Below are positions 2,898 to 8,114 of a stretch of 8,114 bases of DNA, one piece after another; position 1 is the first letter of the stretch; each line of letters begins with the position of its first letter. The position numbers were made by a program, and so were the translations under genes. Location of the stretch: the NCBI GenBank assembly GCA_030612485.1, contig JAUWNS010000104.1:1-8114 (forward strand). Reading direction: 5' to 3'. This DNA is from Candidatus Bipolaricaulota bacterium (lineage in GTDB: Bacteria > Bipolaricaulota > Bipolaricaulia > UBA7950 > UBA9294). The notes beneath the pieces were generated by a model, which did no database searches, was not told the DNA's origin, and saw only the letters and a program-made list of their open reading frames with translations.

Positions 2898-3000
2898 CTC
2901 TTTGTGCCTTTGCGAGATACAGTCTTTTTTCTCTTGCCCGTTCGCTACGTTCACTCAAGCCGCCAAGATCGCTAAGAAAGGCCCTAACTCTTGAGTTCCA
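2898..3000. repeat. Intergenic repeat, copy A
   Basis: This is the first of two diverged direct copies in the convergent gap. Its best-conserved part, 2931-2976, aligns without gaps to 3073-3118 with 7 mismatches in 46 bases, most of them transitions. It contains the runs TTTGCGAGA and CACTCAAGCCGC and ends in GAGTTCCA, which aligns to GAATTCCA of copy B. I see no credible gene or transposase in it. Text of this kind (TTTGCG / CGCCAAG) recurs between genes in many environmental bacteria as far as I recall; that is background knowledge I could not check here. Confidence 0.6.
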
Positions 3001-3030
3001 AACATCTTTCTCTTTGCCTATTTACGCTTT

Positions 3031-3140
3031 CCTTTGTGCTCTTCGCGTCTTTGCGAGAGGCACGAGCTTTTTCTCTCGCCCGTTCGTTGCACTCACTCAA
3101 GCCGCAAAGATCGCCAAGGGGAACAGCTCATCGAATTCCA
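3031..3140. repeat. Intergenic repeat, copy B
   Basis: The second copy of the repeat at 2898-3000, displaced by 142 bp in its core. It differs by a short insertion near its left end (CTTCGCGTC) and by scattered, mostly transitional changes. The left part contains near-periodic 8-9-nt text (CTTTGTG, CTCTTCGCG, TCTTTGCG), related in style to the array that follows at 3141. No gene is visible across it: the frame open through both copies is rich in Ser, Leu, Arg and Phe, has no ribosome-binding site and simply translates the repeat. Confidence 0.6.
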
Positions 3141-3167
3141 TTCTTCGTGTCCTTCGTGCTCTTCGTG
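3141..3167. repeat. 9-nt tandem array, three units
   Basis: TTCTTCGTG, TCCTTCGTG and CTCTTCGTG are three adjacent nonamers that differ only in their first three bases. The array is bracketed by GAATTC at 3133-3138 and 3170-3175. It adjoins repeat copy B and probably belongs to the same family of short-period intergenic elements. Confidence 0.6.
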
Positions 3168-3270: not shown

Positions 3271-4178
3271 TAGCTGCGCTTAATGACGGTTCCTGCTCCG
3301 ATCAGGCAGTTGCGTAAGGTTACCCCTTCAAGATAAGTTCCGCGATCGATCACGCACCCGGTGATCGAGGAGTCAACGATCCTGACCTCGTCGAAAAGGA
3401 CCGAATCTTTCACCGTCGAATTCTCGATGACGACATTCTCCCCTTTCCAAGTGTCCGCGTTCGCGTAGTGGCGGTTAGCCTCGATGTAGGAGGCGCGATC
3501 GCCGATATCGTACCACCCGGTATCAAAGGTGAACGCATCCATCGTTACGCCCTTCTCTTTAAGGAGCCAGGCGTTGAAGTACCCAGGGGCGTCTCTGCCG
3601 GACGTTGCCCCATTCAGGAACTCCTGGAAGTGAGGAAGAACCTCCTTGGGGTAGATGTAGCAGGCAGTGCTCGCCAGGGTCGATCTGGGATTCTGTGGCT
3701 TCTCCTGGAACTCGACGATCTGCCCGTTCTTGACGACCGCCACTCCGTACCGTCCTCGGACTCTTTCGATATCACCGATGTCGTAGAGCGCGATCAGCGG
3801 GTTGCCGCGGAAGGCCGTGAGGAACGTTGAAAGCTCGAACTCGAAGATGTTGTCCCCTCCGATCACCAGGATATCCTCCTCGATTTTCAGTTTCTGGATC
3901 AGGAAGTGAATTGCGCCGATCGTCCCCAACTTCTCCGCCTCTGCGGTCGTCTCCTCCACTACAATCTCTACGTTGCGGCCGGACTCTTCCTGCCAGGCAG
4001 CAAACTGCTCGGCGAATCGGCGGTTGGTAGAGACGATCGGTCGGTCCGACAGAGGGTAGGCGTCAAGGAGGTAGTCGATGATCGGCTTTCCCGCGACCGG
4101 TAGGAGGGGTTTAGCTCGCTTTGCAGTGATCGGGTGGAAGCGTGTGGCGTACCCACCGGCGAGGATGATCGTCTTCAT
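3270..4178 (-). CDS. Sugar-phosphate nucleotidyltransferase (NDP-sugar synthase, RmlA/ManC-like)
   Basis: A 302-residue cytoplasmic enzyme expected to join a sugar-1-phosphate to an NTP, giving an NDP-sugar and pyrophosphate. The N-terminus has the NTP_transferase signature: LAGGYATRF (6-14), then KPLLPVAGKPI (23-33), where Lys23 contacts the phosphates. GGDN (107-110) supplies the metal-binding Asp109, EFQEKP (156-161) the sugar-contacting Glu/Lys, and GWYDIGD (221-227) the second acidic site. From about 248 the sequence turns into left-handed beta-helix-like repeats (VIENSTVKDSV, VRIVDSSITGCVI, GVTLRNCLIGAGTVI), as in COG1208 proteins. Nucleotide and sugar cannot be told from sequence; the upstream phosphoglucose/phosphomannose isomerase makes glucose- or mannose-1-phosphate likely. 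The ATG overlaps the isomerase stop as ATGA (4175-4178), and no clear Shine-Dalgarno is present, so translation is probably coupled. Confidence 0.9.
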   Translation of the reverse strand: MKTIILAGGYATRFHPITAKRAKPLLPVAGKPIIDYLLDAYPLSDRPIVSTNRRFAEQFAAWQEESGRNVEIVVEETTAEAEKLGTIGAIHFLIQKLKIEEDILVIGGDNIFEFELSTFLTAFRGNPLIALYDIGDIERVRGRYGVAVVKNGQIVEFQEKPQNPRSTLASTACYIYPKEVLPHFQEFLNGATSGRDAPGYFNAWLLKEKGVTMDAFTFDTGWYDIGDRASYIEANRHYANADTWKGENVVIENSTVKDSVLFDEVRIVDSSITGCVIDRGTYLEGVTLRNCLIGAGTVIKRS

Positions 4179-5242
4179 GGCGTCTTTTTCGCGGAGGATT
4201 CTCGCTCGGCAAGAGCCTTCTTGAACTCTTCTATCAGGACGACCGGGCTGGGATCGACCTCGTTTAGGAGGGCGAGGTAGTAACTCACGTAGTCCCCGAG
4301 GTAGATCTGTGAGAGGATTTGCGAAAGCTCGCTCCCTCCCTCTGCCTTTACCACGGTGGACAGGACCTTGTTCCTCTCGAACAATGGCATCATGATCTCC
4401 ATGCGAGCGCGGTTCTCAGGGAGATCGTAGTCGTTTTCGAGGAGTAGTACGTGCTGGTTCGCCAGGAGGTCCGCCCTTGCCAGGGCAACGATCTCGTTGT
4501 GATTCAGTTCGGGGAAGACGTTCCAGAATGCCGGTTGCTTTGCGTTCTCGTTGATTTGGGTCTTCCATCGCATTGCTACAAGGTCGGTGTTATCGACCGT
4601 CCCGTAGATCAACGGGATCCGTCCGTGTAGAGTCTGAGCGAGCTGTTTGGCTGGATTTTCCGCGCTGGGAACGCTGCAAGCACAGCGGTCCTTGACCTGG
4701 TCGAGTCCCTGGAGGAGAGCCCCCCAAGGGCCAACCTCCGCAAGGAGGCCGAGCTTGGAGAGGACGACGAGGAGCGGAAGGGCGAGGTACCCCATCACCG
4801 CCCGCGGCTGGTATCCCCTTGGAATCTGCAAGAACGGAAAGCCTTGCGCTTCGCTGATCTGCGATAGCTTTCCCCCGCTTGAGATGGCGATCGTCATCGC
4901 GCCCCGTTCGAGTCCCTGAGAAAGGGAGGAGAGGGTCTCCGCCGTGTTCCCGGAGTAGCTGATCGCGGCAAGCAGGGTGTGCGAATCGGCGAACGCGGGC
5001 AGGGTGTAGCTTCGGTTGACGAATACCGGAACCTTTGCAAAGCGGCGCGCGATCTCTCCCGCCATCGCCGAACCGCCCATTCCGCAGACGATCACCTTGT
5101 CGATCGGTCCAAGTGAGGGGATCTCGAATCGTTCCCCTTGTTCGATTGCCTCAGCACACTGCATAGAGAACCGGTCGATGACCTGGATCATCCCTTGCCG
5201 ATCGTAGCGCGTACGTAAATTCTCATCGTCAAGTCTTTTCAT
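4175..5242 (-). CDS. Bifunctional phosphoglucose/phosphomannose isomerase
   Basis: Interconverts glucose-6-phosphate or mannose-6-phosphate with fructose-6-phosphate in the cytoplasm. The 355 residues form two SIS-type sugar-isomerase lobes. With ATG at 5242 as residue 1: GMGGSAMAG (54-62) and SYSGNTAET (95-103) are the phosphate-binding loops; PRAVMGY (146-152) follows; Glu232 and His248 (in NHNE) are 16 residues apart, the same spacing as the catalytic Glu and His of the Pyrobaculum enzyme as I recall it; EEFKKAL near 338-344 carries the C-terminal Lys. This is the PGI/PMI family of archaea and some bacteria, not classical Pgi. A TTG at 5266 is in frame, but the ATG at 5242 is preferred because the likely promoter's start point falls at the ATG and the family usually begins close to this point. 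No Shine-Dalgarno is seen. It is the first gene of the operon with the nucleotidyltransferase. Confidence 0.9.
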   Translation of the reverse strand: MKRLDDENLRTRYDRQGMIQVIDRFSMQCAEAIEQGERFEIPSLGPIDKVIVCGMGGSAMAGEIARRFAKVPVFVNRSYTLPAFADSHTLLAAISYSGNTAETLSSLSQGLERGAMTIAISSGGKLSQISEAQGFPFLQIPRGYQPRAVMGYLALPLLVVLSKLGLLAEVGPWGALLQGLDQVKDRCACSVPSAENPAKQLAQTLHGRIPLIYGTVDNTDLVAMRWKTQINENAKQPAFWNVFPELNHNEIVALARADLLANQHVLLLENDYDLPENRARMEIMMPLFERNKVLSTVVKAEGGSELSQILSQIYLGDYVSYYLALLNEVDPSPVVLIEEFKKALAERESSAKKTP

Positions 5243-5249
5243 GGTGGTA

Positions 5250-5278
5250 ATGATACCAAGGAGCAAGACTCGTGTCGA
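5250..5278 (-). promoter_or_regulatory. Sigma70-like promoter of the isomerase-nucleotidyltransferase operon, probably leaderless
   Basis: Read leftward, TCGACA (5278-5273) and TATCAT (5255-5250) each match the -35 and -10 consensus at 5 of 6 positions, with an ideal 17-bp spacer. The predicted transcription start is about 7 nt beyond the -10, at 5242-5244, which is the A of the isomerase ATG or within two bases of it. This agrees with the missing Shine-Dalgarno and rules against the TTG at 5266. The -35 lies inside the kinase remnant on the other strand. Confidence 0.6.
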
Positions 5279-5700: not shown

Positions 5701-5707
5701 AGTGACA

Positions 5708-7555
5708 ATGAACCGGAGAACGATTGTGATCCTGGTAATGGTTGTGCTTCTCCTGGCTCTATTCCTGGGCTTGGGGACAGCGGCCGCCCTAGCACATAAC
5801 AATCTGACACTGGAACTGGTGAGCCAGCTCAGGGGATCAACCTACGCTGTCTACGTGGTGGGCGACTACGCTTACATCGGCGAGGGGCCCAGGCTGGTGA
5901 TTTTGGACATCTCCAACCCAACCAACCCCACAGAGGTGGGCCGCACCGACGTGCTCCCCGGCGTTGTGGAGGACGTTCACGTGGTGGGAGACTACGCCTA
6001 CGTCGCCGATGGGCAAGGTGGCCTTCGCGTCATCTCGGTTGTGGACGAGGCGAATCCCACCGAGGTCGGCTTCTTCGACACAGGCTATGCATATGGCATT
6101 CACGTCGTAGGAGACTACGCCTACGTCACCGATGGAAGTGAGGGTCTTGGTGTGATCTCGGTTGCGGACAAGGCGAACCCCACGGAGGTAAGCTACTTCG
6201 ACACGCCTGGCAGTGCAAGGGGTGTTCATGTCGTTGGCGACTACGCCTACATCGCCGATGAGGCCGAGGGCCTGCGGGTCATCTCCGTTGCAGACAAGGC
6301 GAACCCAACCGAGGTGGGCTTCTTCGACACGCCCGGCTATGCATACGGCGTTCACGTGGTGGGCGACTACGCCTACATCGCCGATGAGGCCGAGGGCCTG
6401 CGGGTCATCTCCGTTGCAGACAAGGCCAACCCCAGCGAGGTAGGTTTCCTTGAGACTGCTAGGGCATTTGGCGTTCACGTGGTGGGCGACTACGCTTACG
6501 TCGCCGATTCTGGTGAGGGCCTGCGGGTCATCTCGGTGGTCGACAAGGCGAACCCCACCGAGGTGGGGTTTCTGGACACGGCTGGCTATGCATATGGCGT
6601 TCACGTCATGGGGAACTACGCCTATGTCGCCAATGGGGGGAATGGCCTTCGTGTCATCTCGGTTTCGGACAAGGCGGACCCAACCAAGGTAGGCTACTTC
6701 GACACGGCTGGCTATGCATACCAGGTTCAGGTTGTAGGGGACCACGCATATGTGGCCGATTTCATGGAGGGCCTACGTGTCATCTCGGTTGCCGACAAGG
6801 CCAATCCCAGCGAGGTGGGCTACTTCGACACGCCTGGCTCGGCATATGGCGTTCACGTCATGGGGGACTACGCCTACGTCGCCGATGGGGGGAGTGGCCT
6901 TCGTGTCATCTCGGTGACGGACAAAGCCAATCCCAGCGAGGTGGGCTTCCTGGACACGCCAGGCTCGGCATTTGGCGTTCACGTGGTGGGTGATTACGCC
7001 TACGTCGCCGATTATAGAGAGGGCCTGCGTGTCATCTCGGTTGCGGACAAGGCTAACCCCACCGAGGTCGGTTTCCTCGATACGCCTGGCCAGGCAAGGG
7101 ACGTTCATGTTGTTGGGGACTATGCCTATGTCGCTGACTGGGAGAGTGGCCTACGTATCATCTCCGTTGCCGATAAAGCGGACCCCACCGAGATCGGGGT
7201 TTTCGAGATGGCTGGCCGTGCTCAACACGTTTACGTAGAAGAGGACTACGCCTACGTCTGCGATACGTCCAGCCTTCGGGTCGTCTCGGTGGTGGACAAG
7301 GCCAACCCCATCGAGGTCGGGCTCTTCCACACAGGCTTGCAATGTGACGTTCACGTCATGGGGGACTACGCCTACATCGCTAACGATTGGAAGGGCCTTG
7401 AGATTGTCTCAGTTTCCAATAAGGCGAATCCGACCGAAGTCGCCTTCTTCGATACGGCCGGCCGGGCAGAGGGCGTTCACGTGGTGGGGAACTACGCCTA
7501 CGTTGCCGATGGGGACGGTGGGCTGGTCATCCTGCGCATCTTTGGGCTTCGCTAA
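5708..7555 (+). CDS. Secreted 14-repeat LVIVD-type beta-propeller protein
   Basis: 615 residues. Residues 1-29 are a signal peptide: MNRR, a hydrophobic core of about 20 residues, and an ALA cleavage site before His30. The mature protein is almost entirely repeats: 13 complete units of 40-42 residues (48-589) and a 26-residue truncated one (590-615). The consensus runs VHVVGDYAYVAD, then GLRVISV, DKANPTEV, and a DT.G.A turn. LVILDI in unit 1 and LVILRI in the last unit tie it to the LVIVD repeat family (PF08309, COG5276). The N-terminal segment LELVSQLRGSTYA (35-47) resembles the part missing from unit 14, so it probably supplies the closing strand, giving 14 blades in total. There is no transmembrane anchor, sorting signal or enzymatic domain. 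Its role is unknown; adhesion, ligand binding or envelope scaffolding are possible. The only cysteines in the protein, 518 and 546, are both in divergent unit 12. Confidence 0.88.
   Translation: MNRRTIVILVMVVLLLALFLGLGTAAALAHNNLTLELVSQLRGSTYAVYVVGDYAYIGEGPRLVILDISNPTNPTEVGRTDVLPGVVEDVHVVGDYAYVADGQGGLRVISVVDEANPTEVGFFDTGYAYGIHVVGDYAYVTDGSEGLGVISVADKANPTEVSYFDTPGSARGVHVVGDYAYIADEAEGLRVISVADKANPTEVGFFDTPGYAYGVHVVGDYAYIADEAEGLRVISVADKANPSEVGFLETARAFGVHVVGDYAYVADSGEGLRVISVVDKANPTEVGFLDTAGYAYGVHVMGNYAYVANGGNGLRVISVSDKADPTKVGYFDTAGYAYQVQVVGDHAYVADFMEGLRVISVADKANPSEVGYFDTPGSAYGVHVMGDYAYVADGGSGLRVISVTDKANPSEVGFLDTPGSAFGVHVVGDYAYVADYREGLRVISVADKANPTEVGFLDTPGQARDVHVVGDYAYVADWESGLRIISVADKADPTEIGVFEMAGRAQHVYVEEDYAYVCDTSSLRVVSVVDKANPIEVGLFHTGLQCDVHVMGDYAYIANDWKGLEIVSVSNKANPTEVAFFDTAGRAEGVHVVGNYAYVADGDGGLVILRIFGLR
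5849..7552 (+). repeat. In-gene tandem repeat of about 126 bp, 14 units
   Basis: Units start at residues 48, 90, 131, 173, 215, 256, 298, 340, 382, 424, 466, 508, 548 and 590. Most are 42 codons; units 2 and 5 are 41, unit 12 is 40 and unit 14 is cut at 26. Units 4 and 5 share 65 identical bases (6236-6300 and 6362-6426, exactly 126 bp apart), including synonymous positions. This implies recent duplication or gene conversion. Outer units 1, 12 and 14 are the most diverged. Confidence 0.9.
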
Positions 7556-7563
7556 GGCGTTGG

Positions 7564-7641
7564 TGCCTGGTCTTTATTCTTGGTATTTCGCTTCTCCCTT
7601 GCCAGGCAAATACCGGCTGAAAAGAGATCTTTCCCAAAGAT
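7564..7641 (+). other. Structured 3' flank of the propeller gene (possible terminator or pseudoknot)
   Basis: TGCCTGG (7564-7570) complements CCAGGCA (7602-7608), and GGTATTT (7582-7588) complements AAATACC (7608-7614). Arms in this order could form an H-type pseudoknot or two alternative stems. A third hairpin, ATCTTT-CCC-AAAGAT, follows at 7627-7641. No U-tract is present. From 7642 to 7751 I see no gene or other structure. Confidence 0.35.
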
Positions 7642-7751: not shown

Positions 7752-7787
7752 TTGACAACGGCATGCCCGTCACCTGTAAAATACAAT
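7752..7787 (+). promoter_or_regulatory. Promoter of the avidin-family gene
   Basis: TTGACA (7752-7757) is a perfect -35. The -10 region at 7775-7787 is ambiguous: TGTAAA at 17 bp spacing, TAAAAT (7777-7782) at 19 bp, or TACAAT (7782-7787) at 24 bp. Transcription would start around 7788, leaving a leader of about 50 nt with a GC-rich stretch (7790-7812). The avidin gene therefore has its own transcription unit. Confidence 0.6.
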
Positions 7788-7838
7788 GGCCGACCCCGGG
7801 CTTGGGCTGCCTTACCTGACTAAGCTGGAGGAGATACG

Positions 7839-8114
7839 ATGCAACTTGCAGGAGTTTGGGAGAACGAGCACGGCTCGATCATGGAGATCACCGTAGAAGA
7901 TGGCCGAATCGAGGGGCTGTACAGCTCACACACCGGCGAGACCGGAACGTACCGTGTCGTCGGATTGGCGGACCCCGAGCCGGGCGGCGGGAGTCAGACG
8001 TTTGCGTTTGTGATCTGCTGGCGCCCTCTGGGCAGTCAAGCCGTCGAATCCGAGGGGCACTGGGTGTCCGCGTTCGTCGGACAGCTTCAGATGATCGACA
8101 GGGAGGAAACGCTG
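7839..8114 (+). CDS. Avidin/streptavidin-family biotin-binding protein, 3' partial
   Basis: The first 92 codons are visible and the frame runs off the window. The ATG follows GGAGG (7827-7831) by 7 nt. The protein begins directly with the first avidin strand, MQLAGVWENEHGS, with no signal peptide, so it is probably cytoplasmic, unlike secreted avidin and streptavidin. Aligned by eye to streptavidin: Asn9 and Ser13 correspond to Asn23 and Ser27 (ureido ring contacts), Tyr28 and Ser30 (GLYSSHTG) to Tyr43 and Ser45, Trp61 (VICWRPL) to Trp79, and Trp75 (GHWVSAFVGQL) to Trp92. Ser71 fits Ser88, while Thr90 appears replaced by Gly73. The counterparts of Trp108 and Asp128 lie beyond the window. High-affinity biotin binding is likely but unproven. 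The family is PF01382, usually 120-180 residues, so about 30-40 residues are probably missing. No biotin gene is in view. Confidence 0.92.
   Translation, partial: MQLAGVWENEHGSIMEITVEDGRIEGLYSSHTGETGTYRVVGLADPEPGGGSQTFAFVICWRPLGSQAVESEGHWVSAFVGQLQMIDREETL

Follow-up and report, generated by a model that had tools for sequence, protein, structure and literature searches.

Streptavidin, which binds biotin with femtomolar affinity, is used here as the reference for residue numbering in the avidin family. In full-length streptavidin, streptavidin C1, bradavidin, and hoefavidin, the C-terminal tail is described as occupying the biotin pocket (PMC5398887, PMC7924230, PMC3344845). For example, the tail of bradavidin is reported to weaken its affinity to about 3e-7 M, from a value below 1e-9 M (PMC3344845), so that a plug of this kind can let a cell tolerate an avidin. 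Signal peptides are present in only about 50% of bacterial avidins according to a 2021 survey (PMC8033661), and why a biotin-needing bacterium keeps an avidin inside the cell is an open question. Here, an avidin-family gene is described at the 3′ end of an 8,114-nucleotide contig, JAUWNS010000104.1 (hereafter, the window, meaning this whole stretch), from a Candidatus Bipolaricaulota bacterium. On balance, its product is best explained as a cytoplasmic avidin-fold protein of Bipolaricaulota, one of a clade with a rebuilt pocket that would bind biotin more weakly and reversibly or would accept another ligand; this clade offers a testable answer to the question. No paper linking avidin with Bipolaricaulota was found in an open-access literature search, in which, mostly at the level of listed records, no report of the clade or of the tail motif described below came up either.

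The open reading frame (ORF), of which the window holds the first 92 codons, scores 42.8 bits with the PF01382 profile (E 7.7e-11; curated cut-off, 24 bits), residues 3–90 aligning to profile positions 2–86 of 116, and shares the eight-stranded barrel of the avidin fold that characterizes PF01382 homologues. The family assignment of a preliminary description, made from the sequence alone, is thus borne out. A direct search gave 22 proteins from 23 candidates, at least two of them fragments. P0001, the best full-length relative (126 residues), is 95% identical to the window ORF over the shared part, and the 20 close relatives P0001–P0020 are 73–95% identical over that part, 120–127 residues long, and free of any fused domain. 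Among them, P0012 carries Bipolaricaulota in its source name and P0019 is the sequence encoded by the contig L002 (see below); the remaining ones are presumably from Bipolaricaulota, too. The ratio of nonsynonymous to synonymous substitution rates (dN/dS) is 0.065–0.107 in three pairs of gene copies with NG86 and 0.12–0.13 in two pairs with YN00, values to be read with a dS above 1 and thus close to saturation. The avidin gene is genuine, more than a chance ORF, and is under purifying selection.

The N-terminal signal peptide of secreted avidins is absent from this protein. The ATG sits at strand 1, and the frame ahead of it reads TAA-GCT-GGA-GGA-GAT-ACG, with the in-frame stop six codons upstream excluding a longer start, so that the lack of an export signal noted in the preliminary description stands. 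From the missing signal, the protein would stay in the cytoplasm, as had also been proposed. This feature had been taken as an exception among avidins, which does not hold: in 113 of 118 full-length relatives, no more than eight residues precede the strand-1 Trp. The other five have 14–100 residues there, and their starts may be annotated too early because each has a Met 6–8 residues before this Trp. The missing signal peptide was therefore dropped as a special feature of the window protein.

What sets the protein apart is its pocket, together with a lost tail; past the end of the window both are seen in its relatives. All the contacts to the ureido oxygen of biotin (Asn23, Ser27, and Tyr43), as well as Ser45, are found in the window (Table 1), and Trp79 is also kept. 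The preliminary description had listed these five residues correctly and had added Ser88 and Trp92, which are not supported. In a direct pairwise alignment to streptavidin, Ser88 pairs with S71 and Trp92 with W75 by way of a five-residue gap. However, the hairpin from Gly94-Gln95 to Trp108 is common, without gaps, to P0001 and the two intermediate relatives P0026 and P0027 (in P0001 it reads QxQxIDGEExLTxxW, nearly identical in P0026) and anchors strand 6, and therefore Trp92 corresponds to Phe79, Thr90 to Ser77, and Ser88 most likely to W75. Indeed, Trp92 pairs with F79 in all 91 relatives that keep Asp or Asn at position 128, and a profile–profile alignment likewise equates Trp92 with F79 and Ser88 with W75; the pairing of Trp92 with W75 was accordingly rejected. 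The placement of Ser88 is less certain because pairings in the same 91 relatives are split among W75 (61), S71 (18), and other or no residues (12), and S71 was set aside with correspondingly less certainty. In the 20 close relatives, Asn23, Ser27, Ser45, and Trp79 are invariant and Tyr43 is kept in 19, while His25 and Phe92 are found in all. At the three positions beyond the window for which the preliminary description had proposed a check, Trp108 and Trp120 are kept in 20/20 close full-length relatives and Asp128 is replaced by Ser in 20/20; Gly126 is changed to Asp in them. Hence the pocket is not the intact one of streptavidin, as had been supposed, and it is less certain than was stated that the protein binds biotin or a biotinylated protein.

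The 118 full-length proteins were divided by position 128: 91 have Asp or Asn and 27 have neither, the clade being drawn by that criterion. In the clade, Thr47, Ser90, and Asp126 are found in 27/27 and position 92 is Phe or Met. Asn23, Ser27, Ser45, Trp79, and Trp120 are kept in 27/27 and Tyr43 in 26/27. Position 88 is bulky or aromatic in most members, and Trp108 is His or Tyr in seven. All 27 end 2–11 residues past Phe130 and hence have no tail that could enter the pocket. In contrast, the 91 others, such as P0026, P0027, and P0040, keep Trp79, Trp92, Trp108, and Trp120 without exception (80 of them also Asn23, Ser27, Tyr43, and Ser88) and carry a tail of 19–31 residues; what they share with the clade is a start at strand 1 in most cases. 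His-Pro (HP) lies within the tail in 71/91 as part of a recurring C-terminal (S/A/P)HP motif (tails within P0033–P0122), and 11 tails have WSHP, with which the laboratory Strep-tag II begins. In a structure model, residues 1–139 of P0040 align to residues 15–156 of full-length streptavidin 2bc3, so the tail of these signal-less Asp/Asn128 avidins is modeled to fold as in full-length streptavidin and probably plugs the pocket. The window clade resembles self-plugged avidins in the fold only: they have a tail in the pocket, as the tail-bearing P0040 probably does, and the clade has none. A group of signal-less avidins (P0062, P0072, P0076, and kin) has Cys at both positions 49 and 86, a pair that, by analogy with the dimeric avidins described in PMC5398887, may form a loop disulfide.

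A tree was built from 120 rows and 105 columns, with eight of the pocket columns and the tail left out. One branch separates the 27 proteins and the window from all other rows, with a support of 97 in the Shimodaira–Hasegawa-like approximate likelihood ratio test (SH-aLRT), and both the pocket change and the tail loss require one change on this tree; streptavidin sits on a long branch. P0025 of Govanella unica (Alphaproteobacteria), 52% identical to P0001, falls inside the clade, so that the rebuilt pocket reaches beyond one phylum. Like the other members, it is signal-less and tailless with Thr47, Ser90, and Asp126 and without Asp128, although it differs in Met92, His108, and Tyr25.

Compared with streptavidin and other biotin-binding bacterial avidins, the window protein and its clade thus share the fold, the strand order, the ureido-oxygen site, and Trp79, with Trp108 and Trp120 in close relatives, and they differ in the missing signal peptide, in the changes of Asp128, Trp92, Val47, Leu25, and most likely Ser88, in the new Asp126, and in the lack of a C-terminal tail. 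With the ureido-oxygen site, Ser45, and the aromatic walls Trp79 and Trp120 kept (and Trp108 in the 20 closest), these changes and the loss of the probable plug of other signal-less avidins would most likely leave a barrel that holds a small molecule reversibly. The ligand, as far as the residues suggest, could be biotin at an affinity far below that of streptavidin, which the protein would buffer or carry in a biotin-using cell, or a related, carbonyl-containing molecule. Probably not, but conceivably, the barrel holds no small ligand at all and acts as a structural or oligomerising module, like the avidin-like domain of fibropellins, which does not bind biotin as cited in PMC8033661. The bulky or aromatic residue at 88 and the His or Tyr at 108 would suit such a module, but the near-invariance of Asn23, Ser27, Tyr43, Ser45, Trp79, and Trp120 in the 27 proteins has no evident reason in an empty barrel, and nothing is fused to the 20 close relatives.

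The host cell bears on the choice between weak and tight binding. Biotin carboxylase and biotin ligase are both present in the carrier genomes G001 and G002, and a cytoplasmic biotin sink would therefore compete with the host's own enzymes, as the preliminary description had anticipated for the carboxylases. BioB was above its cut-off in none of seven genomes examined (weaker matches in six; 7/14 controls above cut-off) and BioY was likewise found in 0/7 (9/14 controls), so these bacteria may depend on outside biotin. In such a cytoplasm, a femtomolar binder lacking a plug would harm the cell, and the changed pocket could replace the plug in keeping the avidin tolerable, or could serve a new ligand. 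An ordinary high-affinity biotin binder, kept inside and released on lysis or grazing against predators or competitors, is a less probable explanation. Such a role has been proposed for cytoplasmic fungal defence proteins such as tamavidin. Cytoplasmic fungal proteins have been published as an anti-nematode defence (PMC6238071). The biotin contacts kept in the close relatives agree with this explanation, and loss of Asp128 alone is reported to cost streptavidin 4.4 kcal/mol (PMC4888747), which would leave it a tight binder if all else stayed the same. Nevertheless, several contacts are changed together, Thr47, Ser90, and Asp126 are fixed in 27/27, which is unexpected if biotin affinity was selected, and a free unplugged sink would starve the host carboxylase.

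Several points weigh against a pocket rebuilt for weak or altered binding in place of a plug. A loss of 4.4 kcal/mol from a femtomolar affinity still leaves very tight binding, so that the absence of Asp128 does not by itself indicate weak binding, and the new Asp126 may partly replace it. The window ends before positions 108–128, where the residues are taken from relatives, and the ligand-free structure model of P0001 is only of moderate confidence (a predicted local distance difference test score, pLDDT, of 77). For the plug, 20 of the 91 tails are without HP, and the P0040 model is spanned by few rows past residue 120. In the tree, 55 of 117 inner branches are unresolved; the coincidence of pocket change and tail loss amounts to a single case because each counts once; and SHP-like tails need four changes, so that the motif itself comes and goes. 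With these reservations, it may be tentatively proposed that intracellular avidins are numerous in bacteria and are made harmless to the host in two ways: in most, by a built-in plug peptide, often with an SHP or WSHP core, or, in the clade of Bipolaricaulota, Govanella, and kin, by a plugless, rebuilt pocket suited to reversible or non-biotin binding. If true, a natural pocket moved off biotin by a fixed set of substitutions would guide the design of avidin-type binders.

The host is most likely a member of Bipolaricaulota. The isomerase encoded at 4175–5266 of the window is 73% identical to that of G100 in a comparison within a phylum set of 100 genomes, in agreement with the non-actinobacterial origin suggested earlier; it matches 73 of the 100, some short and weak (E ~1e-7 to 7e-4). 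Related avidin genes are found on two contigs titled Candidatus Bipolaricaulota, L001 and L002. Within the set, avidin occurs in 2/100 genomes, whose completeness was not given, which agrees with the patchy spread expected. The flanks differ among the window, L001, and L002. In G087, a genome close to the carriers (BipA 95% and argH 85% identical), the block aligning to L001 extends as far as the stop codon of BipA, which lies 115 bases ahead of avidin, and that aligning to L002 ends within argH, 14 bases from the 3′ end, which itself lies 4 bases from the avidin end; no avidin ORF was found in the 9.0 and 8.0 kb around these places, nor any PF01382 match in the genome. Avidin therefore occupies different sites in near relatives. 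The preliminary description had left origin by transfer open, and these positions fit transfer, relocation, or loss of the gene alike.

It seems quite improbable that the gene belongs to another organism and entered Bipolaricaulota bins only by contamination. The rarity of avidin in the phylum set and the different flanks at the three loci would agree with this, as would BipA beside avidin in L001, which is 93–95% identical in G002 and G087 and at most 46% in the rest of the 100 genomes; the L001 block is thus unusual for the phylum, and contamination or import of this block is conceivable. However, G001, G002, and G087 are separate genomes sharing these blocks; the argH gene next to avidin in L002 has counterparts with 85% identity in G087, 70% in G091, and 64% in G082; and the eight best matches of the window isomerase in the set, which include G001 and G002, show 62–73% identity to it. 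Furthermore, a dispersed repeat of the window is present in 7/7 Bipolaricaulota-set genomes searched (1–18 related copies per genome), one copy lying in L001 (6620–6772), 233 bases past avidin; in the window itself, the repeat is intergenic at 2898–3165 and comprises two units spaced by about 142 bases.

No carrier element of avidin could be named. Phages searched for avidin gave no match, and viral contigs, searched for close relatives only, gave one pattern match with no relative encoded there. One 35% identical avidin is on a Novosphingobium plasmid; the annotated coding sequence of the avidin-family gene on Novosphingobium plasmid pABRDHK22 (L007:5001-5792) runs about 135 residues past the matched part. 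In G087, a transposase-like ORF, putatively of the IS200/IS605 type, lies about 0.7 kb beyond BipA (L010:2251-2682), near the place of the avidin gene in G001.

Table 1. Features of the avidin-family gene in the window (residues of the window ORF against streptavidin numbering)
Feature	Position	Strand	Remark
In-frame TAA ruling out an upstream start with signal peptide	7821..7823	+	frame read upstream
GGAGGAG, likely ribosome-binding site	7827..7833	+	5 bases ahead of ATG; read from sequence
Avidin-family ORF, first 92 codons	7839..8114	+	still open at window 3′ end
N9 = Asn23, kept	7863..7865	+	alignment
H11 = Leu25, changed	7869..7871	+	His in 20/20 close relatives
S13 = Ser27, kept	7875..7877	+	alignment
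Y28 = Tyr43, kept	7920..7922	+	alignment
S30 = Ser45, kept	7926..7928	+	alignment
T32 = Val47, changed	7932..7934	+	Thr in 27/27 of clade
W61 = Trp79, kept	8019..8021	+	alignment
W75, most likely Ser88 position	8061..8063	+	Trp92 in the preliminary description; pairings with relatives, profile alignment
F79 = Trp92, changed	8073..8075	+	pairings with relatives, profile alignment

No consensus promoter was found upstream of avidin on its strand in the window, L001, or L002; by eye, a TTGACA hexamer is seen at 7752–7757, about 80 bases ahead of the avidin ATG, where the consensus scan gave no promoter. Rfam at gathering thresholds had no match anywhere in the window. Directly upstream of avidin, 5702–7555 encodes a 617-residue protein with 14 LVIVD repeats, the N-terminus of which is hydrophobic and resembles an export signal by eye. 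Between this gene and avidin, a weak terminator-like hairpin is located at 7555–7568.
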